Virus record (IMG/VR): IMGVR_UViG_3300045955_000281
Location: 1-29,056 of that record
Strand: one strand, 5' to 3'
Source: a virus
DNA: 29,056 bases
Shown: positions 6,378-26,382 of the stretch, piece by piece
How the letters are laid out: every line of letters begins with the position of its first letter
Position numbering within the stretch: position 1 is the first letter of the stretch
Translations under genes and position numbers: made by a program
The notes under the pieces: model-generated
Told to the model about the DNA's origin: nothing
Databases searched by the model: none
What the model saw: only the letters and a program-made list of their open reading frames with translations

Positions 6378-6406
6378 TTGACTTTACATGATCGGTCATG
6401 CATAAT
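6378..6406 (+). promoter_or_regulatory. Promoter of the IS1-type transposase
   Basis: TTGACT (6378-6383), a 17-bp spacer, then CATAAT (6401-6406). The spacer contains the inverted repeat CATGA-TCGG-TCATG, a possible operator. The promoter starts 12 bp beyond the last AAGTTTCCA box, so the XRE protein could also control transposition. Confidence 0.7.
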
Positions 6407-6436
6407 AGCGTCATCTGTGTTGATGAGGGTTTCCTG

Positions 6437-7873: not shown

Positions 7874-7915
7874 AATGGCTCCCGCGTGGCGTGCACGGAA
7901 GCACGGAGGGGGGGA

Positions 7916-8398
7916 ATGGGTCGCCGCGGTCCGAAGCCCAAGCCGAAGCACATCTTGAAGATCCGCGGGAGCTGGCGCGCTAAGAAAGGCGGCCCGGAGC
8001 CGGAGCTGCCGCCCGAGCTGGCGGCCCAGCCGATCGCGTGCCCCGCCCACCTGGCCGGCGAGGCGAAGGCGGAGTGGGAACGCGTGGCGCCGTTGCTCGC
8101 CGCGGTGAAGCTGCTCACCCCGCTCGATCGGGCGGCGTTCGCCGGCTACTGTCAGGCCTGGGCCCGCTGGGTCGAGGCGGAGAAGATCATCGCCCGCTCC
8201 GGCGACGTGCTCAAAGGCGACAAGGGGCTGTATCAGAACCCCTACCTGGCCGTCGCCAACCGCGCGCTGGAGCACATAGCCAAGTTCCTCGCGGAGTTCG
8301 GCCTGTCGCCGGCGAGCCGCGCCCGCGTGAGCGCCGACACCTCCACCGGAAAGGGCAAGGATGCCGGTAAAGGTCGCTTCTTCAACCGCAGCGCGTAA
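7916..8398 (+). CDS. terS: Phage terminase small subunit, P27 family, 160 aa
   Basis: Binds the packaging start site and hands DNA to the large terminase. The ATG at 7916 follows GGAGGGGGGGA. It opens MGRRGPKPKPKHILKIRGSW, the usual start of P27-family small terminases, followed by ACPAHLAGEAKAEWERVAPL, the LTPLDRAAFAGYCQAWARW helix and NPYLAVANRALEHIAKFLAE, all characteristic of the family. Length is normal. It overlaps the large terminase frame by 38 bp if that gene starts at 8361. It is the first gene of the co-directional morphogenesis cluster, and its family points to an HK97-like, probably cos-type, packaging machine. Confidence 0.9.
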   Translation: MGRRGPKPKPKHILKIRGSWRAKKGGPEPELPPELAAQPIACPAHLAGEAKAEWERVAPLLAAVKLLTPLDRAAFAGYCQAWARWVEAEKIIARSGDVLKGDKGLYQNPYLAVANRALEHIAKFLAEFGLSPASRARVSADTSTGKGKDAGKGRFFNRSA

Positions 8399-10160
8399 GC
8401 GCCGGCCTGCCTCCCCTCGCCCCTCCGGGGGAGAGGGGTCGGGGGTGAGGGGGGAGCCGCCCGAGTGGCGAAAGCTCCTGCGCCCCGACCAGGTGCCGGC
8501 CAAGTGGCGCAAGCTCTTCGCGCTGATCCCCGGCTACGATCCTTTCAAGGACGCCGACGGCTGCCGGTTCGATCCGGACGCGGCGCAGCTCGCGCTGGAT
8601 TTCTTCCCGGAGTGCCTCCGCCACATTGAAGGCGACCTGGCCGGCCAGCCGTTCACGCTCGAGCCCTGGCAGCAGGCCATCGTCGCCTGTCTCTTCGGCT
8701 GGAAACAACTCGACGAACAGCAGCGCATCGTCCGCCGCTATCGCGAGGTGCTCGTCTACGTCCCGCGCAAGAATGGCAAGACGCCGCTGGTGGCCGGCAT
8801 CGGCCTCCTGGTGCTCTTCACCGACGGCGAGATCGGCCAGCAGGATTACATCGCCGCCGGCGACCGCGAACAGGCGGCACTGCTCTTCCGCCACGCCAAG
8901 GGCATGGTCGAGCTCGAGCCGGAGCTCGACGACCGCTGCGACATCTATGGCGGCAACGCCGCGGCCGGACAATCGCGCTCGATCGTCATCGAGGAGGATG
9001 GGAGTTTCCTGCGGGTGATCTCCGCCGACGCGAAAACCAAGCACGGCGGCAACATGCACCTCGGCATCCTCGAGGAGCTGCACGTGCAGCCGGACCGGGA
9101 ACTGTACGACGTGCTCCGCACTGCGACGGCGTCCAAGAACCGCAAGCAGCCGCTCGTGGCCTACGTGACGACCGCCGACTTCCTCCGCGACTCGATCTGC
9201 AATGAGACCTACGAATACGCCTGCAAGGTCCGCGACGGCATCGTGCCGAACCCGCGCTTTCTGCCCGTGATCTTCGAGGCCGCGGCCGGCGACGACTGGA
9301 AGGCGGAGTCCACCTGGCGGAAGGCCAATCCCAACCTCGGGGTGAGCGTGTCGCTCGACTACCTCAAGGCCGAGTGCTTGAAGGCCCAGGAGACGCCCGC
9401 CTACGAGAACACCTTCAAGCGCCTGCACCTGAACATCCGCACGGAGCAGGACGTGCGGGCGATCGCCATGGACAAGTGGAACTCCTGCGCCGCCGACGTG
9501 GCCGATCCGATGGCCTGGCGGCTCGCGCAGCTCGCCACGCTCAAGAACGAGCACGCCGGCTGCTTCGCTGGCCTCGATCTCGGCTCCACCAGCGACCTCA
9601 CCGCCCTGGGCCTGGTGTTCCCGCGCGGCTCGCGCTTCGTCGTGCTGCCCTACTTCTGGGTGCCGGAGGAAGGGGCCCGCGTGCGCGAGAAACGCGATCG
9701 CGTGCCCTACGGGCTGTGGATCAAGGACGGCTGGATCCGCCAGACCGGCGGCAACGTCACCGATTACGACGTCGTGCGCAAGGACGTGAACGAGATCGTG
9801 GCCAACTTCTGGCTGCGCGAGCTGGCCGTCGATCGCCTGTTCCAGGGCGCCCAGCTCTGCACACAGCTCCAGGGGGACGGGCTGCCCGTCGTCGCCTTCG
9901 GGCAGGGCTTCTTCTCCATGGCGGCGCCCACCAAGCGTATCCTCGAGCTGATCCTCCAGGGGCTCTGGGACCATGGCGGCAACCCGGTGCTCAAGTGGCA
10001 GGCCTCGAACGCCGCCACCGAGGAGGACGCCGCCGGCAATCTCAAGTTTTCAAAGAGCAAGTCGAGCGAGAAGATCGACGGCATCGTCGCCTCCACCATG
10101 GCCCTCGGCCGGGCCATGCTCGTGCCCGAAGGCGACACGGCCGGCGTAGAGCTCTGGTGA
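8361..10160 (+). CDS. terL: Phage terminase large subunit, HK97 type, 599 aa
   Basis: ATP-driven motor and nuclease that packages DNA into proheads. The Walker A-like VPRKNGKT (residues 134-141) and Walker B region HLGILEEL (233-240) form the ATPase. The C-terminal nuclease shows CFAGLDLGSTSDLTAL (D406) and KIDGIVAS (D573). The family is Terminase_1. The N-terminus is unusual: residues 18-31 are encoded by a GC-rich palindrome (8413-8452). Elsewhere in this operon such palindromes sit just upstream of start codons. The true start may therefore be GTG 8445, with GAGAGGGG from the palindrome as ribosome binding site, rather than ATG 8361, which overlaps the small terminase. From 8445 the protein would be 571 aa, closer to the family norm. 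Confidence 0.93.
   Translation: MPVKVASSTAARKRRPASPRPSGGEGSGVRGEPPEWRKLLRPDQVPAKWRKLFALIPGYDPFKDADGCRFDPDAAQLALDFFPECLRHIEGDLAGQPFTLEPWQQAIVACLFGWKQLDEQQRIVRRYREVLVYVPRKNGKTPLVAGIGLLVLFTDGEIGQQDYIAAGDREQAALLFRHAKGMVELEPELDDRCDIYGGNAAAGQSRSIVIEEDGSFLRVISADAKTKHGGNMHLGILEELHVQPDRELYDVLRTATASKNRKQPLVAYVTTADFLRDSICNETYEYACKVRDGIVPNPRFLPVIFEAAAGDDWKAESTWRKANPNLGVSVSLDYLKAECLKAQETPAYENTFKRLHLNIRTEQDVRAIAMDKWNSCAADVADPMAWRLAQLATLKNEHAGCFAGLDLGSTSDLTALGLVFPRGSRFVVLPYFWVPEEGARVREKRDRVPYGLWIKDGWIRQTGGNVTDYDVVRKDVNEIVANFWLRELAVDRLFQGAQLCTQLQGDGLPVVAFGQGFFSMAAPTKRILELILQGLWDHGGNPVLKWQASNAATEEDAAGNLKFSKSKSSEKIDGIVASTMALGRAMLVPEGDTAGVELW
8413..8452. repeat. GC-rich palindrome, family A copy 1 (inside the terL frame)
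   Basis: A CCCCTC ... GAGGGG outer pair with an inner CTCC/GGGGGAG pair, of the CCCCTCGCCCC/GGGGTCGGGGG style. It is read in frame in the large terminase N-terminus, or lies just before its alternative GTG start. Confidence 0.65.
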
Positions 10161-10163
10161 ACG

Positions 10164-10185
10164 ATTCGCTTGCGGTTTAACGAGG
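10164..10185 (+). repeat. Family B intergenic repeat, copy 1 (partial)
   Basis: TTCGCTTGCGGTTTAACGAGG lies between the large terminase stop and the next start. It matches the CGCTTGCGGCTTGACG core of the copies at 14489, 17971 and 22543. The terminal GAGG serves as ribosome binding site of the small membrane protein. Confidence 0.45.
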
Positions 10186-10193
10186 ACCTGCCT

Positions 10194-10346
10194 GTGGTGA
10201 GCTCGATCGTCCGCAACGTGTGCTTCCTCGCCGGCCTCGGCCTCATCGCCGCCGGCTGCTGGTGGATCTGGCCGCCGCTGGCCCTGCTCGTCGTCGGCCT
10301 GGTGCTGATCATCCTGGCCCTGTGGGGAACCTACCATGCTGCTTGA
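10194..10346 (+). CDS. Small membrane protein between terminase and portal, 50 aa
   Basis: Tandem GTG codons (10194 and 10197) lie 8 nt after GAGG; the first is chosen. From residue 7 the protein is almost wholly hydrophobic (VCFLAGLGLIAAGCWWIWPP then LALLVVGLVLIILALWG): two membrane helices joined by a WWIWPP turn, ending GTYHAA. The stop lies 11 bp inside the portal gene, so translation is probably coupled. Tiny membrane proteins occur at this position in other HK97-type clusters. A holin-like or scaffolding role is possible but cannot be shown. It is the only visible candidate for a lysis-like membrane function in the window. Confidence 0.6.
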   Translation: MVSSIVRNVCFLAGLGLIAAGCWWIWPPLALLVVGLVLIILALWGTYHAA

Positions 10347-12081
10347 AACCCTGCTCGGCCTGGGCCATCGCGATCGCCTGGCCACGATCTACGGCAGCCG
10401 CCGGATCTCCGAGGCCACCGGCCTGTGGCCCGCGCCCTCGATCTCCGCCGGCGTCGAGGTCACGGAGGCCACGGCCCTGTCCCTCTCCGGCGTGTTTGCC
10501 GCCGTGCGCCTCTTGAGCCAGCTCAAGGCCTCCCTGCCCCTGAGCGTCTATCGCCGGCAGTCGGACGGCGGCAAGCGTGTGGCGGTCACCCATCCCGGCC
10601 ACACGGTGCTGCACACCTACCCGAATCGCGACATGACCTCGAAGCAGGCCCGGCAGTGCCTGGAGTGGAACCGGCTGCTGGGCGGCAACGCTTACGGCGA
10701 GATCCAGTGGGACGGCGGCGGCAACGTCCGCGCCTACTGGCCGCTCGAGCACTGGCGGGTGCAGATCCAGCGCGACGACGCCGGCAAGCTCTACTACTTG
10801 GTCGACAGCACCCGCAAGGTGGCCGCGGCCGACATGCTGCACGTGCCGCTGGTGTCCTCGGACGGCGTCTGCGGGCAGAGCTTCCTCGACTACGCCGGCG
10901 AGGTCCTCGGCATCGGCATCGCCACCCAGACCTACGCGGGGGAATTCTTCGGCTCCGGCGCCTATCCGGGCGGCGTGCTCCAGCATCCGGGCCAGCCGAC
11001 GGCGGACGCGCGCCAGGAGTCGCGGGAATCCTGGGAGCGGATGCACAATCGCAAGGCCGGCGGCGGCGGCCATCGCGTGGGCGTGCTCTGGGGCGGGATC
11101 ACCTACAACGAAAAGGCCGGTGCCATCAGCCCCGAGGATAGCCAGTGCGTCGAGCAGCGCGTGTTCACCGTGCAGGAGGTGGCCCGCTTCCTCGGCATCC
11201 CGCCGCCGCTCCTGGCCGAGCTGTCGCGGGCGACCTTCGCCAACATCGAGGAGCAAAACCTGTTCTTCCTCACCTACTGCTTCACGCCGATCCTGGTGGA
11301 CTACGAGCAGGAGTACGACCGCAAGCTGCTCTCCCCGCCGGAGCTGTTCAGCAAGCACAACATCGGCGCCCTGCTCCGCGGCAAGGCCCAGGAGCGGGCC
11401 GAGTTTTTCGGCAAGATGTTCGGCATCGGCGCCCTGTCCCTCAACCGCATCCTGGAGCTGGAGGACGAGAACCCGATCGGGCCGATGGGCGACCTCCGCT
11501 TCGTGCCGGTGAACATGCAGACGCTCGAGCAAGCCGCGCGCGTCGCCCAGGCCGCCAAGGAGCCGGCGCCCGAACCGGAGCCGGCCACGTCGCCGGCGGA
11601 TCCGCCGGGCCCGGCTCCAGCGGAGGATCCCCAGGAGCCGGACGATCAGGAGATGGAGCTGCGCCGCGCGTGCGAGCAGCTCCTGGCCGACACGCTGGGC
11701 CGGCTGACCAAGAAGGAAGCCAACGAAGCCCGCCGGGCGGCCAAGCAGCCCAAGAAGTTCCTGGCCTGGATCGATGGCTTCTACAACGCGGACTATCGCT
11801 CGACCATTCGCGCCGCAGTGACTCCCGTTCTGCGGACGGCGGTGATCGCCGCCCGCCGCGACGCGGATGCCGACGAGCTCGCCCACGTGTTCGCCATCGA
11901 GCATCTCAGCCGCTCCACCCAGGAGCTGCTCGACCTGGCCGGCGCTGCCACGGAGGCAGAGCTGGCGCCGAAACTGGAAACCCTGCTCACCGCCTGGACC
12001 GAGCGCATCGCTACGGACGCGGCGGGCCTCATGGAGGTTTGTCATGCCAAAGCCCAGCAAGCCCATACCCGTGCAGCCTGA
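10336..12081 (+). CDS. Phage portal protein, HK97 family, 581 aa
   Basis: Forms the dodecameric DNA channel at the capsid vertex. The order of segments is that of HK97 portals: TALSLSGVFAAVRLLSQLKA near residue 50, NRLLGGNAYGEIQWDGGGNV near 115, the MLHVPLVSSDGVCGQSFLDY region near 170, and VFTVQEVARFLGIPPPLLAE near 280. A proline/glutamate-rich linker (about 410-440: APEPEPATSPADPPGPAP) leads to a helical C-terminal extension of about 140 residues that ordinary HK97 portals lack. The extension may reach into the capsid and could act as a scaffold or protease partner. The gene overlaps both neighbours, 11 bp upstream and 38 bp downstream. Confidence 0.93.
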   Translation: MLLETLLGLGHRDRLATIYGSRRISEATGLWPAPSISAGVEVTEATALSLSGVFAAVRLLSQLKASLPLSVYRRQSDGGKRVAVTHPGHTVLHTYPNRDMTSKQARQCLEWNRLLGGNAYGEIQWDGGGNVRAYWPLEHWRVQIQRDDAGKLYYLVDSTRKVAAADMLHVPLVSSDGVCGQSFLDYAGEVLGIGIATQTYAGEFFGSGAYPGGVLQHPGQPTADARQESRESWERMHNRKAGGGGHRVGVLWGGITYNEKAGAISPEDSQCVEQRVFTVQEVARFLGIPPPLLAELSRATFANIEEQNLFFLTYCFTPILVDYEQEYDRKLLSPPELFSKHNIGALLRGKAQERAEFFGKMFGIGALSLNRILELEDENPIGPMGDLRFVPVNMQTLEQAARVAQAAKEPAPEPEPATSPADPPGPAPAEDPQEPDDQEMELRRACEQLLADTLGRLTKKEANEARRAAKQPKKFLAWIDGFYNADYRSTIRAAVTPVLRTAVIAARRDADADELAHVFAIEHLSRSTQELLDLAGAATEAELAPKLETLLTAWTERIATDAAGLMEVCHAKAQQAHTRAA

Positions 12082-12958
12082 GCGGCTGCGCGCTTTCGCC
12101 ACCGGGAAGCCCGTCGGCGTGGACCGCAAGGCCAAGGTGCTCCGCGGTTACGTCGTCGCCCAGCTCGGCCCGTTCAAGAGCTTCGGCCGCGGCGAGTTCG
12201 ATCGGCTCGCGCTCGAGCAGATCGTGGAGCTCGGCAACGCCGGCCCTCATGGGCTCAAGAGCCACTTTCAGCACGAGACGCTGTCCGACGACGGCCTGGG
12301 CAAGCTGCTCGGCCGCTCCAGGAACTTCCGCCTGGACACCGCCACCGTCATGCGCGACGGCAAGCGGCTCACCGTCGAGGCCGTGCGTGCGGATCTCCAC
12401 TTCTCGGACGCGGCCTTCAACGCCCCGGCCGGGAACCTGGGCCAGTACGTGATGGACCTGGCCGATGAGGATCCGGACGCGCTCAGCTCTTCGCTCGTGC
12501 TCAACAAGACCGAGGCCTGGCGGCTGAACGAGGACGGCACGCCGCAGATCGACGAGGACGGGGAGGAGCTGCCGCCGCTCTGGCGGGTCGAGAAGCTCTG
12601 GGCCTCCGACATCGTGGACACCGGCGACGCCGTGGACGGGCTCCTGTCGGTGCAGCTCGACATCGATCGCCTGCCCGACGCCGCGGTCCGCCGCGGCGCC
12701 GAGCTGCTCGACCGGGCCTTCGCCGGCCAGCCGCGGGAGGTGATCGAGGCCCGCTGCAAGGCCTGGCTGAGCCGCTACCTGGCCCACCGGTTCGGGCCAG
12801 AGGAGGAATCACCCCACCCCCAACCCCCTCCCCGGATCGGGGAGGGGGCAGGGGGAGAGGTTCGAGGCCCCGCCGGCGACGTGCCGGTCGCCATTCGCCG
12901 TAAGCTCCTGAACCTCAAGGCGAAACAACTTGCTCTGTACACCGCGGGCGGACGGTAG
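12044..12958 (+). CDS. Putative prohead maturation protease, 304 aa
   Basis: The ATG at 12044 follows GGAGG at 6-nt spacing and lies inside the portal 3' end. Position between portal and major capsid protein is that of the HK97 prohead protease. The fold signals fit loosely: KVLRGYVVAQLGPFKSF at the start, GLKSHFQHETLSDDGLGKLL with candidate catalytic histidines H74 and H77, VRADLHFSDAAFN, and DPDALSSSLVL with serines 148-150 as candidate nucleophile. These are my readings, not verified catalytic residues. Residues about 256-276 (SPHPQPPPRIGEGAGGEV) are encoded by a palindrome inserted in frame, so the C-terminal tail tolerates extra sequence. The last part is basic. Confidence 0.7.
   Translation: MPKPSKPIPVQPERLRAFATGKPVGVDRKAKVLRGYVVAQLGPFKSFGRGEFDRLALEQIVELGNAGPHGLKSHFQHETLSDDGLGKLLGRSRNFRLDTATVMRDGKRLTVEAVRADLHFSDAAFNAPAGNLGQYVMDLADEDPDALSSSLVLNKTEAWRLNEDGTPQIDEDGEELPPLWRVEKLWASDIVDTGDAVDGLLSVQLDIDRLPDAAVRRGAELLDRAFAGQPREVIEARCKAWLSRYLAHRFGPEEESPHPQPPPRIGEGAGGEVRGPAGDVPVAIRRKLLNLKAKQLALYTAGGR
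12811..12860. repeat. GC-rich palindrome, family A copy 2 (inside the protease frame)
   Basis: Perfect 10-bp arms CCCCCTCCCC (12824-12833) and GGGGAGGGGG (12839-12848) with GGATC between, plus CCCCACCCCC and GGGGGAGAGG flanks. It is translated in frame without breaking the protease gene. Confidence 0.8.
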
Positions 12959-13184
12959 CCAGAATGGGCCCTGACAATTCGCTTTGCCGCGTAGGGGTTG
13001 ATCGCGAGCCGTTGCTCCGGTCGCCCAGCGCGGAACAGTAGCAAACCACGCACGCCGTCGCGGGCGCGGACTACTCGCAAGGGATGCTCTCACGAGACCT
13101 TTGCCGGTGGCCTGCGCCCGTGCTCATTTCACGGCTGGCCTCTGGCGAGCCGGGCGGCGTAAGCTCCCGGAGATGGAGGCCAGC

Positions 13185-14480
13185 ATGGAAGCCCTCAAGG
13201 AACTGCTCGACAAGCGCGCGAAGGCCTGGCACGACGCGAAGGCCATCCTCGACAAGGCGGACGCTGAAAAGCGCGAGCTCACCGCCGAGGAGAACCAGAC
13301 CTACGAGCGGCTCGAGGCGGAGATCGACGGCTTGACCGCCAAGATCGACGCCCGGGAGACCGGCGATCGGCGGCGCAAGAAGCTGTCCAACCTCGGCGAC
13401 CGCATGCGCGACGAGCTGCCCCGGCAGACCGAGCCGAGCCAGCCGGGCCTCAGCCGGGAGCACACCGGCGAAGCCCTCACCTTCCAGCTCCGGGGCCGGA
13501 CGATCACGATCGCCCCGGGCAGCCGCGAGCACGAGCGGGCCAGCGACAAGTACAACCAGGCCATGCTCAACTATCTGCTCACCGGCGAGAAGCTGGGCAT
13601 GCAGACGGCCGTCGATACCAAGGGCGGCGTGCTCGCCTCCACGCAACTGTCCATGGACCTGATCAAGTTCCTCGACGACGAGGTGTTCATCCGGCAGCTC
13701 GCCACCGTGGCCCCGCCGCTCTCCAACGCGGTCAGCCTGGGCGTGATGAGCTATGACACCGACGTCGGCGACGCCGACTGGACGCCGGAAGTGCCGGCCT
13801 CGGACATCTCCGAGGACGATACCGCCGCCTTCGGTGGCCGCGAGCTGACGCCCCACCTGGTCACCAAGCTGGTGAAGTTCAGCCAGAAGATGGTCCGCGT
13901 CTGGCCGCAGACCAACAGCTTTCTCGCCGGCCGCCTGGGCTACAAGTTCGGCGTCACCGAAGAGAAGGCCTTCCTGACCGGCAACGGCAACCACCGGCCG
14001 CTGGGCGTGTTCGTCGCCTCGGACGACGGCGTCAGCACGGGCCGCGACGTCACCGCCTCCGCGGCCACCAGCTTCACGGCCGACGATGTGATCGACTGGC
14101 TCTACAACCTCAAGCCCGGCCACCTCAACGTGGCCACGATCGTCGCCCACCGCGATTTCATCAAGCGCTGCCGGAAGCTCAAGGACGGCAACGGCCAGTA
14201 CCTCTGGCAGCCCGGCCTGCAAGGCGGCAACCCGAGCGTGATCTGCGAGCGGCCCTACAAGACCTCGGAACACGCGCCCAACACCTACACCACGGGCCAG
14301 TACATCGCGATCGCCGGCAACTGGAAGGCCGGCTACATGATTGTTGACTCGCTCGAGCTGGCCATCCAGCGCCTCGAGGAGCTGTTCAGCCTCAAGAATC
14401 AGTTCGGCCTCCTGGCCCGCAAGGAAACGGACGGTCAGCCGGTGCTGGAAGAAGCCTTCACGCGCTTGAAGCTCGGATAG
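13185..14480 (+). CDS. Major capsid protein, HK97 fold, 431 aa
   Basis: Builds the icosahedral shell. The ATG at 13185 is preferred because GGAGG stands 5 nt before it; an ATG at 13173 would add four residues and earlier starts lie in repeat-like sequence. Residues 1-80 are a charged coiled coil (MEALKELLDKRAKAWHDAKA), the delta or scaffold domain normally removed by the protease. The mature part follows with TAVDTKGGVLASTQLSMDLI, the FLDDEVFIRQLATVAPPLSN N-arm, FGVTEEKAFLTGNGNHRPLG and a conserved C-terminal IQRLEELFSLKNQFGLLARK. The 226-bp gap before it (12959-13184) holds no gene that I can support; it contains a CCGGG...CCCGG hairpin at 13150-13170. Confidence 0.92.
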   Translation: MEALKELLDKRAKAWHDAKAILDKADAEKRELTAEENQTYERLEAEIDGLTAKIDARETGDRRRKKLSNLGDRMRDELPRQTEPSQPGLSREHTGEALTFQLRGRTITIAPGSREHERASDKYNQAMLNYLLTGEKLGMQTAVDTKGGVLASTQLSMDLIKFLDDEVFIRQLATVAPPLSNAVSLGVMSYDTDVGDADWTPEVPASDISEDDTAAFGGRELTPHLVTKLVKFSQKMVRVWPQTNSFLAGRLGYKFGVTEEKAFLTGNGNHRPLGVFVASDDGVSTGRDVTASAATSFTADDVIDWLYNLKPGHLNVATIVAHRDFIKRCRKLKDGNGQYLWQPGLQGGNPSVICERPYKTSEHAPNTYTTGQYIAIAGNWKAGYMIVDSLELAIQRLEELFSLKNQFGLLARKETDGQPVLEEAFTRLKLG

Positions 14481-14488
14481 TTTCCGCC

Positions 14489-14506
14489 GCCGCGTGCGGC
14501 TTGAAG
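14489..14506 (+). repeat. Family B intergenic repeat, copy 2
   Basis: GCCGCGTGCGGCTTGAAG matches the start of the copy at 17971 at 16 of 18 positions. It sits directly after the capsid gene stop and before the next ribosome binding site. Confidence 0.5.
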
Positions 14507-14545
14507 TGAGATCACGAGGCCCCCGAGAGGGCGGGAGACCAGACC

Positions 14546-14974
14546 ATGCGAGACATGCTGCACAACGACGTGGAGTATCGCGTTGCCATCCCGGCCGACG
14601 AGGGGGCCGGCAGCGACACCGCCAAGGTGAGCTCGATCATCGACGTCGCCAATCGCGACTCGCTCGAGTTCATCATCGCCACCGGCGCGCTGGCCGACTC
14701 GAACGCCACCTTCACGGTGCTCGTCGAGGACGGCGACAACTCCGCCCTCAGCGACGCCGCGGCCGTGGACGACGCGTTCCTGCTCGGCACCGAGGCCGGC
14801 GCCAGTTTCCAGTTCGACGACGACAGCGAAGTGCGCAAGATCGGCTACATCGGGCCCAAGCGCTACGTGCGTTTGACCATCACGCCGGCCAACAACACCG
14901 GCGCCTGGGACATCGCCGTCGTCGCGGCCCTGGGCGGCTGCCGCAAGGTGCCGCGTAGTTCGCAATCGGCGTAG
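14546..14974 (+). CDS. Putative capsid decoration or head-associated protein, 142 aa
   Basis: The ATG at 14546 follows GGGAG at 8-nt spacing. The sequence opens MRDMLHNDVEYRVAIPADEG and is a beta-sandwich-like protein with alternating hydrophobic residues (FIIATGALADSNATFTVLVE, KIGYIGPKRYVRLTITPANN). I recall proteins with IGYIGxKRYVRL next to the major capsid gene in several tailed phages; they are usually unannotated. Its position right after the capsid gene and its beta content suggest decoration of the shell. That role is inferred. Confidence 0.7.
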   Translation: MRDMLHNDVEYRVAIPADEGAGSDTAKVSSIIDVANRDSLEFIIATGALADSNATFTVLVEDGDNSALSDAAAVDDAFLLGTEAGASFQFDDDSEVRKIGYIGPKRYVRLTITPANNTGAWDIAVVAALGGCRKVPRSSQSA

Positions 14975-15037
14975 CTCCCATCCGTGTCTTAAGTGACTAC
15001 TCGCCTGCGGGCGGGGCAACCAGCGGAGTCCATTGCA

Positions 15038-15832
15038 ATGTCGACCGCAGCGCAGCGAACATACGGCCCGAAGGTCTACCGCGAACAAGGCGGCAACATC
15101 CTGCGGGTGCGCGAGAACGGCAACAGCGATCGCGGCCTCATCGTCTGCGAGGACGACCTGTGGGGCGACTGCCCCATTCTCAACTGGCTCCTCGATCCGA
15201 CCATCGGCACCTGCCTGATCGAGAACTGGCACAGCTACGACGCCGAGGCCACCGTCGGCAATTACGTGCTGACCCAGGCCACGGCCGGCACGGCCGCGAT
15301 TGACACGGCCGAGACCGGCGTGCTGCTCCTGGATTCGGATTCCACCACCAGCACGCAAGGAGCCAACCTCCAGCGCCCCAAGGCGGCCTTCGTGCCGGTG
15401 GCGGACACCACGATCTGGGCCGAGTTCGAGTTCAAGATCGTGGACACCTTCGACAAGGTGGAGCTCTTCTGCGGCCTCTCCGAGATCGACACCAGCATCA
15501 TCGCCGCCAGCGCCATGAGCACCAGCAACCACATCGGCTGGCAGTGCCTGACCGATGACGGCGTGCTGCTCTTCGACACGGAGAAGGCGACCGCGGCCGC
15601 GACGCAGGCGGCGGCGACCATCGCGGAGGCGACCTACATCAAGCTCGGCTTCAAGGTGACCGGCGTTACCAGCATCAAGCAGTACGTCAACGGCACGCTC
15701 ACCGGCTCCGAAGTGGCGACCGCCAACATCCCGATCGTGGCGCTGTTTCCGTCGTTCGTGTGCCAGTCGGCCGGGACCAACGACCCGATCATGCATCTGC
15801 GCGGCTATCGAATCTTCCAGACGAGGGCTTAA
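15038..15832 (+). CDS. Putative virion surface protein, beta-sandwich, 264 aa
   Basis: The ATG at 15038 follows GGAG at 9-nt spacing; an upstream in-frame GTG lies in intergenic repeat-like sequence and is less likely. It opens MSTAAQRTYGPKVYREQGGN. The central region (WAEFEFKIVDTFDKVELFCG, then a TYIKLGFKVTGVTSIKQYVN segment) reads like a lectin or LamG-like jelly roll with Asn/Gly turns. No catalytic residues are apparent. It is located among head genes, between the decoration candidate and a small 86-aa protein. A role as a capsid surface or adsorption protein is inference. Confidence 0.65.
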   Translation: MSTAAQRTYGPKVYREQGGNILRVRENGNSDRGLIVCEDDLWGDCPILNWLLDPTIGTCLIENWHSYDAEATVGNYVLTQATAGTAAIDTAETGVLLLDSDSTTSTQGANLQRPKAAFVPVADTTIWAEFEFKIVDTFDKVELFCGLSEIDTSIIAASAMSTSNHIGWQCLTDDGVLLFDTEKATAAATQAAATIAEATYIKLGFKVTGVTSIKQYVNGTLTGSEVATANIPIVALFPSFVCQSAGTNDPIMHLRGYRIFQTRA

Positions 15833-15835
15833 TTC

Positions 15836-16096
15836 GTGGCCTGGCAACTGCAACAAGGCGTCGGCACGCTGGCCCACCCGTTCTACACGGGTGTCAGCAG
15901 CGACGCCAAGCCGGCTCTCGACGTGCCCGACGCCACCGCGTTCGAGCTGGACACGCGCCGCGAGTACATCTGGCGGAGGAATGCGTGGTATCTGTTCCGC
16001 GAGCCGCAGAATTTGCTGACGGTTTTGAATGAGCTGGTCCAGCAGCAGAAGCGCACGGTGGAGCAGCTCGAAATCCTGATCGACAAGTTCAAATAG
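15836..16096 (+). CDS. Small phage protein with C-terminal coiled coil, 86 aa
   Basis: The GTG at 15836 is three bases after the preceding stop and follows GAGGG. It opens MAWQLQQGVGTLAHPFYTGV, has an Arg/Trp-rich middle (REYIWRRNAWYLF) and ends in a helix with heptad-like spacing (VLNELVQQQKRTVEQLEILI). The helix may mediate oligomerisation. I recognise no family. Tight spacing to both neighbours (3 and 10 bp) supports it as a real gene of the head module. Confidence 0.6.
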   Translation: MAWQLQQGVGTLAHPFYTGVSSDAKPALDVPDATAFELDTRREYIWRRNAWYLFREPQNLLTVLNELVQQQKRTVEQLEILIDKFK

Positions 16097-16106
16097 GAGA
16101 CCTGCA

Positions 16107-16739
16107 ATGCAAGTCGAACTCCCGTCTGCGAGCGGAAAGTTCCCCCCGGGCCCCGGCCTCCTTTCCGACGAGCGGGCGCAGCTCATGCAGCCCTACGGCG
16201 GCAAGTGGTATCACGCCGCCAAGCAGGGCCGGCTGTTCATGGCCAGCGAAGCCGCCGCCGGCGTCGTGCTGCCGATCTACTCGGCGACCGCCGCCAAGTT
16301 CGTGCTGTGGAACCCGGCCGGCTCAGGCGTCAACCTCGTGCTGGTCCGGTTCACCTCCACCTATGTGGACACGACCGGCGCCGCGGGCGGCTACGCCATC
16401 GGCATCATGAAGAATGCCGGCTCCGCCCTGGCGACCGGCGGTGTCTCCGCCTTCACGGAGACCGTCCCCGAACGCGCCCCCTTCGGTGGATCGACGGGCG
16501 GCAACAAGGTCCGCTTCGCCGCGGCGGCGACCATCATCGCCCCTACGCTGCTCTACCAGCTCGGCCACAATCAACTGGTCCTGACGGCCACGGACGCGAC
16601 CACGGCGGCCTTCGCCTTCCAGAAGGACTTCGACGGCGAGTTGGTGATCGCCCCGAACAACCTCATCAGCTTCGGCGGCAACATCGCCACGCTGAGCAAG
16701 TGGGCCTCGTCCGTGATGTGGTGCGAGGAGCCGGTCTAA
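16107..16739 (+). CDS. Putative virion structural protein, beta-rich, 210 aa
   Basis: The ATG at 16107 follows AGGAG at 6-7 nt spacing. It opens MQVELPSASGKFPPGPGLLS and has a middle of alternating strands (FVLWNPAGSGVNLVLVRFTS) rich in Ala, Gly and Thr. It ends SKWASSVMWCEEPV. No enzyme motif is visible. The mix of strands and glycine turns is typical of outer virion proteins such as decoration or head-fibre proteins. It completes a run of four consecutive beta-rich genes after the capsid gene, an unusually large set for a simple siphovirus head. Confidence 0.6.
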   Translation: MQVELPSASGKFPPGPGLLSDERAQLMQPYGGKWYHAAKQGRLFMASEAAAGVVLPIYSATAAKFVLWNPAGSGVNLVLVRFTSTYVDTTGAAGGYAIGIMKNAGSALATGGVSAFTETVPERAPFGGSTGGNKVRFAAAATIIAPTLLYQLGHNQLVLTATDATTAAFAFQKDFDGELVIAPNNLISFGGNIATLSKWASSVMWCEEPV

Positions 16740-16830
16740 GTTCGTGAAACCACGGTCCGCGTGAGTGGCACGGATTCGCCACGTCGCCGGCCACGGATGG
16801 CCATCACGCGGGCCTGTGCAAGGAGAATCG

Positions 16831-17082
16831 ATGGCTGCCCGGAAGTCGAAGAAGCTCGCCTGCCTGGCCAAGGAGATGCTCGCCGCCAAGGACCGCGGCC
16901 GGGCCGCCTACGGCAAGGCCGACGAGCTGCTCGACGAGCTGCTCGACGACCTCAAGCCCGGCGAGGTCCTCGACCTGGGCGACGGGCAGACGTTCGAGCT
17001 CGTGGACCGCTTCGCGGAGAAAAATAAGGTGTTCACCCCGACCGGATGCAACCGCTTCGAGGTGAAAGTGACGCGCCGGTAA
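16831..17082 (+). CDS. Small phage protein, 83 aa
   Basis: The ATG at 16831 follows AAGGAG. It opens MAARKSKKLACLAKEMLAAK, continues with an acidic helix (KADELLDELLDDLKPGEVLD) and ends in a short beta-hairpin-like segment (DGQTFELVDRFAEKNKVF, then FEVKVTRR). I recognise no family. The arrangement of a basic N-terminus, helix and small sheet is common in minor head or regulatory proteins. The 91 bp before it hold only a short GGCC-ACGGAT-GGCC palindrome. It is followed at once by a family A palindrome that separates it from the connector gene. Confidence 0.6.
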   Translation: MAARKSKKLACLAKEMLAAKDRGRAAYGKADELLDELLDDLKPGEVLDLGDGQTFELVDRFAEKNKVFTPTGCNRFEVKVTRR

Positions 17083-17146
17083 CCTCTCCCCCGCCCCTCC
17101 CCGATTCGGGGAGGGGTTGGGGAGGGGTTGTGTCGGGGGTGAAGGG
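17081..17146. repeat. GC-rich palindrome, family A copy 3
   Basis: Perfect 10-bp arms CCCCTCCCCG (17094-17103) and CGGGGAGGGG (17107-17116) around a 3-nt loop, with an AACCTCTCCC flank and a GGGGTTGGGGAGGGG extension. It fills the gap before the connector gene; its GGGGGTGA end supplies the likely ribosome binding site. Confidence 0.8.
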
Positions 17147-17148
17147 TT

Positions 17149-17961
17149 ATGGGACTCGAGCTCCTCACCGCCCCCTACGCCGAGCCGATCGGCCTGTACG
17201 AGACCAAGGCCCACTGCCGGGTGCAGGTGACCGCCGACGACACCTACCTCACCGATCGCATCCGCGACGTGCGCGAGTATGTGGAGGAGGGGCTCAGCCT
17301 GCAGTTCGTGGCGGCGACCTGGCGGTTGAAGCTCGACGAATTTCCGGAGGACGACGAGATCCTCCTGCCGCGCGGCCCGGTGATCGGCATCAGCGCGATC
17401 AGCTACGTGGACAGCGACGGGGCCACGCAGTCCCTGACCTCGAGCGACTACCAGCTCGACACCAGCAAGAAGCTGGCCCGCTTGCAGCCGGCCTACGGCG
17501 AAGCCTGGCCCTCGACCCGCGAGCAGTTGAACGCCGTGACGGTGGATTTCTACGCGGGCTACCTGGCCCCGTTCACGGCGGTGGCGGCCACGAATGTGAT
17601 CACGGTGCAGGGACGGACCCTCACCAACGGCGACAAGTTCCGGCTGTCGAACCACCACACGGAATCCGGCGGGGCGCTGCCGGGCGGGCTGTCGGCGAAC
17701 ACGGATTATTACGTGATCAGCGCCTCGGGCTCGACCGGCAAGCTGAGCCTGACCTCCGGCGGTTCCGAGGTGGACATCACGGACACGGGCACGGGCACGC
17801 ACTTCCTGGGCCAGCTCCCGGGACGGGCCCGGTCGCTCCTGAATGTGCTGGTCGCCAACCTCTACGAGAACCGGGAGGCGGTGATCAAGGGCACGATCGT
17901 GGCCGAGCTGCCCTGGGCGGCGCAATCGCTGTGGTGGTCGCTTTGGCCGGGGGAGATGTAA
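17149..17961 (+). CDS. Head-tail connector, gp6-like, with an inserted beta domain, 270 aa
   Basis: Seals the portal and links head to tail. Residues 1-140 follow the gp6-like connector pattern: MGLELLTAPYAEPIGLYETK, AHCRVQVTADDTYLTDRIRD, TWRLKLDEFPEDDEILLPRG and VTVDFYAGYLAPF. The usual C-terminal helix (SLLNVLVANLYENREAVIKG) comes only at residue 229. Between them, about residues 142-222, lies an extra domain (ITVQGRTLTNGDKFRLSNHH ... LPGGLSANTDYYVISASGST ... VDITDTGTGTHFLG). It resembles a repeat domain found in phage fibres and surface proteins. Normal connectors of this type are about 190 residues, so this is a domain insertion. Confidence 0.85.
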   Translation: MGLELLTAPYAEPIGLYETKAHCRVQVTADDTYLTDRIRDVREYVEEGLSLQFVAATWRLKLDEFPEDDEILLPRGPVIGISAISYVDSDGATQSLTSSDYQLDTSKKLARLQPAYGEAWPSTREQLNAVTVDFYAGYLAPFTAVAATNVITVQGRTLTNGDKFRLSNHHTESGGALPGGLSANTDYYVISASGSTGKLSLTSGGSEVDITDTGTGTHFLGQLPGRARSLLNVLVANLYENREAVIKGTIVAELPWAAQSLWWSLWPGEM

Positions 17962-17970
17962 GCACCCAGC

Positions 17971-17996
17971 GCCGCTTGCGGCTTGACGCTCGGAGG
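17971..17996 (+). repeat. Family B intergenic repeat, copy 3
   Basis: GCCGCTTGCGGC followed by TTGACGCTCGGAGG. It matches the copy at 22543 at 23 of 26 positions. The final GGAGG is the ribosome binding site of the next gene. Confidence 0.75.
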
Positions 17997-18003
17997 GAAG
18001 CAC

Positions 18004-18336
18004 ATGCCAGCCGGCGCCTACCGCGACGTGATCGACATCGAGGAGCCGACGGAGACCAACAATGCCTTCGGCGAGCCGGTGGCGACCTGGGCGGCGATGA
18101 GCAGCGGCTCGGACATTCGCGCGGAGGTGAAGGACTTGCAGGGCCGCGAGCTCGAGCAGGCCAAGGCCACGCACGCGGACGTGAGTGTGCGGGTGAAGCT
18201 CCGTTACTTCTCGGGCCTGACGCCCAAGAAGCGGTTCAAACAGAAGCCGAGCAACCGCTACCTGCAGATCGAGAGCGTCGCCAACCCGGACGGCCGGCAG
18301 ATCGAGCACGTGTGCTTGTGCAAGCAGGAGGTGTGA
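18004..18336 (+). CDS. Phage head-tail adaptor (head closure), 110 aa
   Basis: Joins the connector ring to the tail. The ATG at 18004 follows GGAGGG. It opens MPAGAYRDVIDIEEPTETNN, followed by AFGEPVATWAAM and IRAEVKDLQGRELEQAKATH. The YRxxIxIxxPxxxxxxxGxxxxxWxx...RAxVxxLxGxExxxA pattern belongs to the phage head-tail joining family (Pfam Phage_H_T_join). The strand pairs VSVRVKLRYFSGLT and RYLQIESVANPDG are also typical. Its length is normal. It is directly downstream of the connector and upstream of the gp10-like protein, the expected order. Confidence 0.88.
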   Translation: MPAGAYRDVIDIEEPTETNNAFGEPVATWAAMSSGSDIRAEVKDLQGRELEQAKATHADVSVRVKLRYFSGLTPKKRFKQKPSNRYLQIESVANPDGRQIEHVCLCKQEV

Positions 18337-18337
18337 G

Positions 18338-18562
18338 ATGAAACCAGGAGACACCGGCAAGCTGAACTTCGACGGTCACCCGCTCAACGGGCTGCCGTTT
18401 GAATTGCACAAGTGCACCAGCGACGGCATGGCGATCATCAAGCTGGTCGAGAAGGCCAGCGCCAAGCGCAAGGGCTACAAGGTCGGCGACACGTTCCACG
18501 TGCCCAAGTCGGCCTTCCTGGCGGATGGCCAGCCGGTGCCGTCGACCCAGGCGAAGCCATGA
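18338..18562 (+). CDS. Small phage protein, 74 aa, unknown
   Basis: The ATG at 18338 lies two bases after the adaptor stop and follows AGGAGG. It opens MKPGDTGKLNFDGHPLNGLP and contains CTSDGMAIIKLVEKASAKRK and GYKVGDTFHVPKSAFL, a small beta-barrel-like pattern. I recognise no family. Its stop overlaps the ATG of the next gene (ATGA), which argues for coupled translation and a real product. The last residues (PVPSTQAKP) look disordered. Confidence 0.6.
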   Translation: MKPGDTGKLNFDGHPLNGLPFELHKCTSDGMAIIKLVEKASAKRKGYKVGDTFHVPKSAFLADGQPVPSTQAKP

Positions 18563-19101
18563 GCCTGCGCAACCGGCTCGCCGAGGGGCCCAAGGCGCCG
18601 GTGCACGCGGAGATCGAGGGCCTCGCGGAGATTCAGGCCCGCATCCGGGAACTCGGAGGCCCTTCGGTCAGGCGCATCCTCCGGCCTGGGGTCGCCAAGG
18701 GCACGCGGGTGATCGCCAAGGCCTTGAAGCAGCTCAGTCCGGTCCGGAAAACCCGCCGGGGAGAGAAGGGTAGCTACCGCGGGAAGCAGCTCAAGAAATC
18801 CCAGGGGCAAAAGGTCAAGACGTACAAGGGGGCGGTGCTCGGCATCGCCGGGCCCCGCACCGGTTTCAAGCTCGTGATCGGCACGCGCGTGCGCGGGAAG
18901 CACAAAGGCAAGCCGATCACCTACGATCCCGCCAAGACGTTCCACCTGGTGGACCTCAAGACCAAGCGGTCGCAGGGCCAGGAAGTCCGCCGGCGGGCGG
19001 TGCAGCAGACCAGGGGCGAGGTCAGCCGGATCATGCACGAGGAAACCGGCAGAGCTTACGACGCGGAGGTCAACCGGCTGCGGGCCAAGGGACGGCTATG
19101 A
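18559..19101 (+). CDS. HK97 gp10-like tail-joining protein, 180 aa
   Basis: Minor head-tail joining component. The ATG at 18559 overlaps the preceding stop; upstream in-frame sequence is only the shifted frame of that gene. It opens MSLRNRLAEGPKAPVHAEIE. The GLAEIQARIRELGGPSVRRI helix followed by KGTRVIAKALKQLSPVRKTR is the classic gp10-like start, in which the protein counts off a basic, strand-rich middle (KTYKGAVLGIAGPRTGFKLV). The C-terminal helix VRRRAVQQTRGEVSRIMHEE is also typical. It stands in the expected position before the tail completion gene. Confidence 0.85.
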   Translation: MSLRNRLAEGPKAPVHAEIEGLAEIQARIRELGGPSVRRILRPGVAKGTRVIAKALKQLSPVRKTRRGEKGSYRGKQLKKSQGQKVKTYKGAVLGIAGPRTGFKLVIGTRVRGKHKGKPITYDPAKTFHLVDLKTKRSQGQEVRRRAVQQTRGEVSRIMHEETGRAYDAEVNRLRAKGRL

Positions 19102-19151
19102 ACCCCACCCCAACCCCTCCCCGGAGCGGGGAGGGGCAGGGGAGAGGTTTT
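19101..19151. repeat. GC-rich palindrome, family A copy 4
   Basis: Arms CCCCTCCCCG (19114-19123) and CGGGGAGGGG (19127-19136) with a 3-nt loop; the arms are identical in sequence to those of copy 3. Its GGGGAGAGG end is the ribosome binding site of the next gene, 5 nt before its ATG. Confidence 0.8.
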
Positions 19152-19152
19152 T

Positions 19153-19578
19153 ATGAACGGCGGCAAGTGGATCTACGCCCGGCTGGCGGCCAACGCCGAC
19201 GTCAATGCCCTGATCGGCGCAGCGCCCAGCACGCGTTGCCGGAAGGTGCGGGCCAAGCAAAACGAGACCGTCCCCTACGTGGTCTACCGCCGGGTCGGCA
19301 GCGATCGGCCCCATGCCCACGACGGGCCCGTCAATCCGGTGGGCGCTCGCTTCGAGCTCGACTGCTACGCGGCCACCGGCGACGCGGCCGAGGACCTGGC
19401 GACGAAAGTCGCCGCCGCCCTGCGCACCACGCCTGGACAGCCCACGGTCGCCGGCGGAGTGACCGCACAAGCGTGCCTGGTGGAGGATGACGCCGACGAC
19501 GTGGACGCGCCCGTTCACGGCGACGAGGTCGGCAATTCTTACGTGACCGTGGACTGCGTCTTGTGGCTGGAGGAGTGA
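19153..19578 (+). CDS. Tail completion protein, DUF3168-type, 141 aa
   Basis: Terminates the tail tube at the head-proximal end. It opens MNGGKWIYARLAANADVNAL, then TVPYVVYRRVGSDRPHAHDG, RFELDCYAATGDAAEDLATK, VAAALRTTPG and DDADDVDAPVHGDEVGN. The pattern of an N-terminal helix, PYVVYxRV, the GxxxxxxxxRFELDCYA strand and a Y-VTVDxxLW end belongs to the DUF3168 family (lambda gpU-like or gp17-like tail terminators). The gene starts just after a palindrome and its TGA overlaps the ATG of the next gene. Confidence 0.85.
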   Translation: MNGGKWIYARLAANADVNALIGAAPSTRCRKVRAKQNETVPYVVYRRVGSDRPHAHDGPVNPVGARFELDCYAATGDAAEDLATKVAAALRTTPGQPTVAGGVTAQACLVEDDADDVDAPVHGDEVGNSYVTVDCVLWLEE

Positions 19579-19784
19579 TGCTCGAGTTCGTGCAGGTCAA
19601 GACGCGGGCGCGTGTGTTCGTCGATCCGGCCCAGGTCGCCCTGATCGTCGAGAAGTCGCGCATCGGACAGGACGCGGAACCCCAGCGCACCGCCGCCCTG
19701 CTCCTGCACTCGGGCGTCTGCGTGCAGGTCATGGATCTGGATGGGGACGCCGGCGAGAGGATCGCCGCCGCCCGGATGAAATAG
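19578..19784 (+). CDS. Small phage protein, FlbD-like pattern, 68 aa
   Basis: The ATG at 19578 overlaps the previous stop (TGATG) and follows GGAGG. It opens MLEFVQVKTRARVFVDPAQV, then ALIVEK and a later strand LLLHSGVCVQVMDLDGDAGE. Two short strand regions separated by a loop and a final helix resemble small FlbD-like proteins, which have a VNPxxIxxIE motif followed by a strand and helix. The likeness is weak and no function follows from it. Tight coupling to the tail-completion gene and 15-bp spacing to the tail tube gene support it as real. Confidence 0.6.
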   Translation: MLEFVQVKTRARVFVDPAQVALIVEKSRIGQDAEPQRTAALLLHSGVCVQVMDLDGDAGERIAAARMK

Positions 19785-19799
19785 ACAAGGAGGCCAAGG

Positions 19800-20234
19800 A
19801 TGGCTCAGCACCCCTACGGCGCCAAGTTCCAGTACGACCTCGACGGCACGCCCCCCTTCACCGACCTGACGGCGGTGAAGTCGATCGGCGGCGTCGACAT
19901 GGCCGTCGGCAGCTCGATCGTCACGCACCTGGAAAGCGCCAGCGCCTGCGCCGAGAAGATCCCCGGCTGGGCGGACGCGGGCAAAATCACGGTTGTCCTC
20001 TTCTCCGTGAAGGCCCTGCTCAACACGCTCTACACCACGCTTTACCGGACGACCTACTACTGGCGTGTGGTCTGGCCCCTGCTCACCGGCGAGTCGAACG
20101 CCACACTCTTTCATTTTCAGGGGCACTGGACCCGGCTGCACGAGCTGGAAAAAGCCGCCAACTCGGATGAGCCCCTGCTCTACGAGCTCGAAGTTGACAT
20201 CACCGGCAAGCCGACGTTCACGCCGGGCACGTAG
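19800..20234 (+). CDS. Major tail tube protein candidate, 144 aa
   Basis: The ATG at 19800 follows AAGGAGG. It opens MAQHPYGAKFQYDLDGTPPF, then DLTAVKSIGGVDMAVGSSIV, a region with conserved Gly-Gly turns, then VLFSVKALLNTLYTTLYRTT and YWRVVWPLLTGES. The gene lies between the tail-completion and chaperone genes, exactly where HK97- and lambda-type clusters encode the tube subunit. The overall alpha/beta pattern suits a tail-tube fold, although sequence similarity to a named family is not obvious to me. I consider this assignment likely mainly from position. Confidence 0.75.
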   Translation: MAQHPYGAKFQYDLDGTPPFTDLTAVKSIGGVDMAVGSSIVTHLESASACAEKIPGWADAGKITVVLFSVKALLNTLYTTLYRTTYYWRVVWPLLTGESNATLFHFQGHWTRLHELEKAANSDEPLLYELEVDITGKPTFTPGT

Positions 20235-20263
20235 ATCTCCCCATCGCCCGCTGGAGGAAGTGC

Positions 20264-20698
20264 ATGCTCAGTCTGCAGCAGATCCTGGACAAGGAGGACG
20301 TCCAGGTCGAGGTGGTCAAGGTCCCCGAGTGGGGCGGCGAGGTGTGCATCCGCTCGCTCATGGGCTGGGAGCGCGACCAGTTCGAGCAGGCGTGCGAGCG
20401 CGACGGCGGGCGCGGGCTGGAAAATGTTCGCGGCCGCTTCTGCGCCATGATCCTGTGCGATGCCCAGGGCAAGCCGTTCTACACGGAGGAAACGCTCGGC
20501 CATGGGTACAAGGAGATCGGCCGCAAGAATGCCGCGGCCCTCGATCGCCTGTGGACGCGCGGCTTGAAGCTCAACCGCATGCGGAAGAAGGACGTGGAGG
20601 AGCTGGTAAAAAACTCCGACAGCGCCCCGAGCGGCGCTTCTGGATCGAGCTCAGCTACCGCTACGCCACCCCCGTCCGATTCCTCCAGCGGCTCCTGA
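20264..20698 (+). CDS. Tail assembly chaperone, gpG-like, 144 aa
   Basis: Binds the tape measure during tail assembly. It opens MLSLQQILDKEDVQVEVVKV, then PEWGGEVCIRSLMGWERDQF, CDAQGKPFYTEETLGHGYKE and DRLWTRGLKLNRMRKKDVEE. This is the pattern of tail chaperones of the G type (strands, WGG, helix with a GxxLKLN-like motif). After the frameshift site the zero-frame tail is a low-complexity Ser/Pro/Ala stretch (SAPSGASGSSSATATPPP) with no conserved content, as in other phages. The ratio of this product to the longer fusion is normally important for tail length. Confidence 0.85.
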   Translation: MLSLQQILDKEDVQVEVVKVPEWGGEVCIRSLMGWERDQFEQACERDGGRGLENVRGRFCAMILCDAQGKPFYTEETLGHGYKEIGRKNAAALDRLWTRGLKLNRMRKKDVEELVKNSDSAPSGASGSSSATATPPPSDSSSGS

Positions 20699-20949
20699 CC
20701 AGCCGCGACTTCGCCGAGCTGCTGGCCGAGGAACGCCTGGAGCCCCGCGGCGAGCAACGGGCCGATGGCCGCGCCGCCCAGGTGGCCTGGAACGCCTGGC
20801 GGCTGCAGCACGCTCAGCGGGCATCCGATCACGACTTCGCCCCCAAGTTCGGCCCCCAGGAGCGGCGGGAGCAGACCCGCGAGGAACAGATCCGGCAGGC
20901 CCAGGTGATCACGATTTCCAACGGCGGCACGATTGTGTCGCCGGGTTAA
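20264..20949 (+). CDS. Tail assembly chaperone fusion, gpGT-like, made by -1 frameshift, 228 aa
   Basis: The first 117 codons (20264-20614) are shared with the G-like protein. A one-base backward shift at 20608-20614 then continues with the codon at 20614, for another 111 codons up to TAA at 20947-20949. The downstream part reads LRQRPERRFWIELSYRYATP, SRDFAELLAEERLEP, RADGRAAQVAWNAWRLQHAQ and DHDFAPKFGP, which resembles the T domain of phage tail chaperones (W-E-L-A..., helix, FxPxFG). It has no good start codon or ribosome binding site of its own. The coordinates given span both frames. Confidence 0.82.
20608..20637 (+). promoter_or_regulatory. Programmed -1 frameshift signal for the tail chaperones
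   Basis: Slippery heptamer A-AAA-AAC at 20608-20614 in the zero frame. Seven nucleotides later a GCGCC/GGCGC hairpin (20622-20626 with 20633-20637, 6-nt loop) can stimulate the shift. This is the classical bacterial heptamer, spacing and structure, with the second reading frame open for 111 codons after it. Confidence 0.85.
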
Positions 20950-20950
20950 C

Positions 20951-20989
20951 TCCCTCGCCCCGCGTCGGGGAGAGGGCCGGGGTGAGGGG
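20951..20989. repeat. GC-rich palindrome, family A copy 5
   Basis: CCCTCGCCCCG pairs with CGGGGAGAGGG with one mismatch around CGT, followed by CCGGGGTGAGGGG. It occupies the gap between the chaperone fusion and the tape measure gene; GAGGGG lies about 11 nt before that ATG. Confidence 0.7.
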
Positions 20990-21000
20990 TATCGCCCAGC

Positions 21001-22536: not shown

Positions 22537-22542
22537 TCACGT

Positions 22543-22568
22543 GCCGCGGGCGGATTGACGCTCGGAGG
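22543..22568 (+). repeat. Family B intergenic repeat, copy 4
   Basis: GCCGCGGGCGGA followed by TTGACGCTCGGAGG, matching 17971-17996 at 23 of 26 positions. The GGAGG(AG) end is the ribosome binding site of the following TTG-started gene. Confidence 0.75.
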
Positions 22569-22576
22569 AGATTACC

Positions 22577-23518: not shown

Positions 23519-23526
23519 GGTGAACC

Positions 23527-24531: not shown

Positions 24532-24540
24532 TTGCAAGCC

Positions 24541-24618
24541 CTCACCCCATCACCCCATCACCCACTCACCCCCTCAAGCCACGGATGGGGTGATGGGGTG
24601 AGCGGGTGAGGGGGTGAC
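24541..24618. repeat. CACCCC / GGGGTGA microsatellite-like inverted repeat (family A variant)
   Basis: Left half: CTCACCCCATCACCCC and further CACCC units. Right half: GGGGTGATGGGGTGAG and further GGGTGA units after ACGGAT. The halves pair imperfectly. It fills the gap before the fibre gene and uses the same CACCCC/GGGGTG vocabulary as family A, but in short tandem units. Confidence 0.7.
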
Positions 24619-24641
24619 AAGCGGGATAAGAGAGGCCACGG

Positions 24642-25916: not shown

Positions 25917-25921
25917 CCCCA

Positions 25922-25944
25922 GCCCGGCTCACGGGGGCCGGGCT
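25922..25944 (+). promoter_or_regulatory. GC-rich hairpin after the fibre gene
   Basis: AGCCCGG and CCGGGCT form a 7-bp stem with a loop of about ten nucleotides just before the GGGAGG ribosome binding site of the next gene. No T-run of useful length follows, so it may be a partial attenuator or only a structural spacer. Confidence 0.4.
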
Positions 25945-25963
25945 CTTGCAGGGAGGATGGATC

Positions 25964-26359: not shown

Positions 26360-26382
26360 TCGCTGATCCCCGAGGTGTCAAT

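Follow-up and report, generated by a model that had tools for sequence, protein, structure and literature searches.

Probable REP-like palindromes turning over in the late operon of a phage

Introduction

Are the short palindromes that recur along a phage late operon control signals built into it, or mobile elements that have inserted there? The question is raised by a 29,056-nt stretch of viral DNA (IMG/VR record IMGVR_UViG_3300045955_000281, positions 1 to 29,056; hereafter the window), in which an earlier note had described five GC-rich palindromes and proposed that they might be mobile, might have become protein-coding or might act as portable ribosome binding sites. Among known elements, REPs comprise the GTAG and CGTC superfamilies and include published intragenic copies (PMC3733652), TnpAREP/RAYT proteins are associated with REPs (PMC8266576), and Rickettsia palindromic elements (RPEs) that lie in frame have been reviewed (PMC10969869).

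The palindromes lie in a head-tail operon that runs from 7886 onward and encodes, in order, terS, the large terminase TerL (8361-10160, plus strand; PF03354, PF20441, phrog_9), the portal, a presumed prohead protease (12044-12958, plus strand), an HK97-type capsid protein, a connector (PF05135), a head completion protein (PF05521), a neck protein, a tail terminator (PF11367), a tail assembly chaperone and the tape measure. The protease, which found no match in Pfam or PHROGs, is named for its position between the portal and capsid genes and for fold similarity: Foldseek matches of its predicted structure in BFVD include several prohead proteases (probability 1.0, E 4e-5, low TM), and the search against PDB gave nothing significant. 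Upstream of the operon, the window holds an IS1-like transposase (PF03400) at 6398-7411, adjoined by an HTH plus ImmA/IrrE-type metallopeptidase regulator on the minus strand (5162-6304). The host may be a planctomycete, a guess from the style of the repeats.

Results

Two families of palindrome

All five palindromes are present where they had been placed, at 8413, 12811, 17081, 19101 and 20951. They measure 42-53 bp, are GC-rich and form two related families rather than the single one first proposed. Family A comprises copy 2 (12811-12861, plus strand), copy 3 (17081-17129, minus strand) and copy 4 (19101-19149, plus strand), each an asymmetric hairpin of ~49 bp with the bipartite layout AACCCCACCCCAACCCCTCCCCG-nnn-CGGGGAGGGGCAGGGGAGAGGTT and with identical unpaired stem positions across copies. 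Copies 3 and 4 have the identical 10-bp arm CCCCTCCCCG in common, as previously reported. Copy 3 is inverted, its reverse complement matches copy 4 at 45 of 49 positions (92%), and the two share their asymmetric mismatches despite their opposite orientation. Family B, which resembles family A in style only, consists of copy 1 (CTCCCCTCGCCCCTCCGGGGGAGAGGGGTCGGGGGTGAGGGG; 8413-8454, plus strand) and copy 5 (20951-20989, plus strand), whose alignment gives the outer arm GGGGTGAGGGG. The supposed sixth relative at 24541 proved to be a separate long hairpin of TCACCCC/GGGGTGA repeats (24539-24617, plus strand), microsatellite-like and homologous to neither family, in the 110-nt gap 5' of the gene at 24642 (z -5.1 against dinucleotide shuffles).

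The RNA hairpins formed by the palindromes have predicted stabilities of -30 to -48 kcal/mol. For copies 2, 3 and 4, no dinucleotide shuffle out of 200 folds as well (z -3.2, -4.2 and -4.2), and copies 1 and 5 depart more mildly from shuffled sequence of equal composition (z -1.2 and -2.0). Hairpins with a stem of at least 10 bp number five in the window, against ~0.5 expected per Markov-simulated window, and three of these are long C-first palindrome stems (10-11 bp), which is above chance. Every family A copy also contains, in one of its arms, a strong G-quadruplex motif of four GGGG runs with 1-2-nt loops (12812-12833, minus strand; 17108-17127, plus strand; 19103-19122, minus strand), which falls on the mRNA strand only in copy 3.

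Placement within the operon

Three copies occupy gaps between genes: copy 3 the 66-nt gap 5' of the connector gene (17149), copy 4 the 51-nt gap between the stop codon of the neck gene (TGA, 19099-19101) and the ATG (19153) at which the tail terminator begins, and copy 5 the 51-nt gap 5' of the tape-measure gene (21001). Element-free non-coding sequence makes up only 3.7% of the span 7886-27000, yet three of the five copies are found in gaps (P about 5e-4). The AACC end of copies 3 and 4 completes the stop codon of the upstream gene, split T/AA at copy 3 and TG/A at copy 4. Since the elements nearly fill gaps of 51-66 nt, their closeness to the next start codon is forced and by itself is no evidence for a role as a ribosome binding site.

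Comparison with a related phage

A profile search with the presumed protease identified L040, which is syntenic with the window from terS to the tape-measure gene at 40-75% protein identity and is the sole near relative available for a site-by-site comparison; scans with the tail-tube and connector proteins gave no closer relatives. The site of copy 4 is empty in L040 (CTGTGACCAAC), where the neck TGA and the tail terminator GTG overlap as GTGA, and that of copy 5 is likewise empty, the gap there being about 17 nt. The TerL ortholog of L040 carries no palindrome at the site of copy 1. At the site of copy 2, L040 has a family-B palindrome (10363-10404) in place of the family A element, and its connector gap, the site of copy 3, holds a different type of repeat, GGGGCGAGCCGGGTGGCGTGAGCCCCCGG (13990-14030), a variant of which occurs upstream of terS (5310-5340). 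A further family-B hairpin, at ~19515-19555 and ahead of the gene for the tail assembly chaperone, is private to L040, with no counterpart in the window.

The earlier note had pointed to orthologous clusters as the comparison that would separate mobile repeats from ancient sequence, and in the one near relative the set of copies and sites differs: two sites are empty, one is non-palindromic, one holds a different palindrome and one another repeat, and there is one private copy. Because the sites in L040 are empty or differently occupied, the elements appear to come and go rather than to be ancestral, which supports reading them as mobile or turning-over elements rather than built-in control signals. 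C-first hairpins of this style number just four across 85 related loci (0.99 Mb), L040 and the distant relative L115 contributing two each; the palindromes are thus not a conserved feature of this phage group. Both L115 hairpins (8040-8062 and 8596-8618) lie just 5' of ATG codons, and in the second a GGAGG of the arm falls shortly ahead of the start.

Copies inside genes

Two copies had been described as lying within reading frames without disrupting them. Both are indeed in frame, but neither is in a conserved domain: copy 1 falls at the very N-terminus of TerL, in an extension, and copy 2 in the C-terminal tail of the presumed protease. The protease sequence on both sides of copy 2 is homologous in L040, where WLSRYL and IRRKLL.LKAKQ are conserved to either side (RYLAHRFG..., ...IRRKLLNLKAKQ in the window versus RYLDRRYG..., ...IRRKLLALKAKQ in L040). 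Homologous protein to both sides of a palindrome means that copy 2 would be translated unless the whole tail were untranslated in both phages, and its translation as part of the protease linker therefore appears well supported. The more distant orthologs in L042, L044 and L014 have a short linker and a shorter, basic tail without a palindrome. In the window, the copy 2 segment (predicted peptides SPHPQPPPR/IGEGAGGEVR) lies within residues 253-288, a linker predicted to be disordered that joins helices at 231-250 and 283-301.

For copy 1, which lies in the N-terminal linker of the TerL frame, the argument rests on the position of the start codon. The TerL start (ATG, 8361) overlaps terS, and the same ATG is present in L040, where it is the sole ATG, GTG or TTG in the first 240 nt of the frame. 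The TerL of L040 must start at this shared codon, so translation through copy 1 is the simpler reading; copy 1 is probably translated (predicted peptide RPASPRPSGGEGSGVR), the alternative being a start at the in-frame GTG within it (8445). The proposal that palindromes here have become protein-coding thus has good support from copy 2 and probably holds for copy 1 as well. Disorder is predicted for TerL residues 1-29, with order starting right after the palindrome, and both coding copies lie in segments with pLDDT below 50. As stop codons are nearly absent from the elements in all six frames, a frame stays open across them at little cost, which is no evidence of domestication.

Ribosome binding at copy 4

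It had also been suggested that three copies supply or adjoin the ribosome binding site of the next gene. This applies to copy 4 alone, where a Shine-Dalgarno-like GAGAGG (19142-19147) lies 5 nt ahead of the tail terminator ATG; copies 3 and 5 have no well-placed GAGG. In the modelled free RNA the key bases of GAGAGG are mostly paired, and when 19085-19115 are held unpaired, as by a ribosome positioned at the stop codon of the neck gene, the modelled unpaired probability of GAGAGG rises to 0.3-0.8. Re-initiation at the tail terminator through a hairpin opened by the ribosome is therefore plausible in the model, and copy 4, alone among the copies, could plausibly provide a portable ribosome binding site as a by-product.

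Occurrence in other genomes

Exact matches to the core were found in one Edwardsbacteria MAG and in 13 viral stretches, which include three from the same virus as the window as well as unrelated viral contigs. A scan of genomes with the element pattern matched this MAG alone, which has 11 copies within one mismatch, and the same layout with a GAGAGGT end is found there and in other viral contigs. The element was absent from nine relatives of the MAG within its phylum. Weaker, similarly built elements occur in 128 plasmid records, mainly of the alphaproteobacterial Rhizobiaceae, Azospirillum and Sphingomonas, and all five of the plasmid examples inspected were intergenic. BLAST of the element against known phage records gave no match, and a TerL scan of genome contigs, run in search of the host, found no relative. 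Matches in Rfam (mir-4433 and others) were far below gathering scores and are attributable to chance. No RAYT was recognised among the window proteins searched; for Y1_Tnp, the copy-bearing MAG has one marginal match against 2-5 in three copy-free relatives.

Discussion

We consider it likely that the palindromes are untagged, REP-like, non-autonomous elements, most likely derived from the host, that were inserted into the phage late operon largely after its split from L040. The best reading is of an untagged REP-like family that is also present in other bacterial and viral DNA and is turning over here. Counting against it are the missing GTAG or CGTC tag, a direct repeat at a single copy and the mild z values of copies 1 and 5. 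Such elements, of a type found scattered across bacterial genomes, would insert, presumably by a transposition-type mechanism, into the head-tail (late) operon of a phage that is probably temperate. Copies would survive where they fell into disordered protein linkers or into the scarce non-coding sequence that separates genes of like orientation. The tolerated coding sites would be the N-terminal extension of TerL and the linker from the protease core to its C-terminal helix, where an insert could be in frame and nearly stop-free. In the gaps, the hairpin would separate the stop of one gene from the start of the next. Copy 4 would have split an ATGA-type stop/start overlap and placed its own GAGAGG where a ribosome binding site was then needed, and a ribosome ending the neck gene may open the lower stem and so expose it.

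The palindromes could instead be portable translation-start modules, kept because they bring ribosome binding sites, although we regard this as unlikely. On either strand, the 3' side of a C-first palindrome is rich in G, so that insertion near a start would bring a GGAGG- or GAGG-like tract in either orientation, and the idea gains from the spacing of GAGAGG at copy 4 where L040 has the GTGA overlap, from its modelled concealment until a ribosome covers the upstream stop, from the L115 hairpin with GGAGG shortly before an ATG and from the in-frame GTG within copy 1. It accounts poorly for copies 3 and 5, however, and nearness to the start is unavoidable in such short gaps; published REPs between co-directional genes hug the end of the upstream gene while their distance to the next start varies (PMC3733652), and the tail terminator of L040 manages without such an element. 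A bolder version, which we hold to be more doubtful still, is that the elements are orientation-independent translation modules, whose 3' arm is purine-rich whichever strand is read and whose insertion at an ATGA overlap swaps stop/start coupling for a hairpin that the ribosome opens and that brings a binding site of its own, and that the protease linker is a recurrent site of palindrome replacement that feeds new coding sequence into capsid-assembly proteins.

That the palindromes belong to the conserved regulation of the phage, as transcription terminators, attenuators or mRNA-stabilising hairpins, seems improbable to us. Their RNA hairpins are very stable and some stand between co-oriented genes, and TTTTT follows copy 4, but a terminator scan, which gave 11 sites in total against 9.5 in shuffles, lists none of the palindromes, the hairpins are kept neither in L040 nor in the 0.99 Mb of related loci, and two of the five copies are within genes. 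We think it very improbable that they are low-complexity hairpins generated locally, by slippage or template switching, with no common ancestry: the arms are built from C4-5/G4-5 runs and the 24539-24617 hairpin does look like a microsatellite, but the match of copies 3 and 4 in opposite orientations extends to their asymmetric mismatches, and the layout with the GAGAGGT end recurs in the Edwardsbacteria MAG and in other viral contigs. An artefact of assembly or binning is refuted for practical purposes by separate assemblies, 3300045946 and 3300045934 (L012, L001 and L015), which carry the same palindromes at 99.99% identity, even though the left end of the window (1-1123) has a chimeric look where it meets an IS1595-like element (1124-3296). 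The left flank of this IS in contig L001 (2700-2800), which is near-identical, ends in ATTCGGCC, identical to the 8 bp that follow the IS (a target duplication), and the left flank in the window, ATAATGAA, does not match those 8 bp; positions 1-1123 are therefore probably a chimeric join or the product of an IS-mediated rearrangement.

The REP-like reading draws on several resemblances. Like REPs, these elements are imperfect palindromes of the 20-50-nt class that occur in both orientations, mostly between co-directional genes, with a minority of copies in ORFs, often N-terminal in the case of REPs; their ends complete upstream stop codons, as reported for GTAG REPs (PMC3733652). Unlike REPs, they lack a GTAG or CGTC tag, lie in a phage structural operon and come with no RAYT recognised among the window proteins searched. 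GTAG/CTAC is absent in or beside all five copies, and an unpaired CGTC end tag is also absent, CGTC being present solely within the loop of copy 5. We therefore take them to work in the manner of intragenic REPs without assigning them to the REP superfamilies. As with RPEs, a palindrome is inserted in frame in genes of unrelated function and adds a peptide, homologous flanks being seen for copy 2, but the phage elements are 42-53 bp long as against about 150 bp for most RPEs, are GC-rich, lack the CGTC tag of RPE-4/6 and fall in predicted disordered linkers.

The mobile regulatory cassettes of T4-type phages, reportedly described by Arbiol et al. in 2010, are said to be mobile intergenic stem-loops carrying promoters. 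The present elements are likewise mobile intergenic stem-loop elements in a phage genome; unlike those cassettes, some copies are in coding sequence, and a promoter scan found no promoters here. Comparison with a MITE of a DDE transposon turns on a 7-bp direct repeat, TATGAAC (19097-19103, plus strand, and 19152-19158), which flanks copy 4 only and is statistically weak, with a chance of about 0.027 per site and five sites tested. It may be the trace of a target-site duplication, or may stem from repetition of the start codon.

As a kind, the elements are not notable, since intragenic REPs and RPEs have been published (PMC3733652, PMC10969869). What the locus offers is a natural experiment, in which one phage operon has the elements and that of a relative is mostly without them, in which the insertion of copy 4 pulled apart a stop codon and a start codon that had overlapped, and in which the same protease linker is filled by two different palindromes in two relatives. 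It makes testable how compact viral genomes tolerate or use selfish palindromes, a question that has been raised for REPs and RPEs and, within the literature surveyed, has been little examined in phages.
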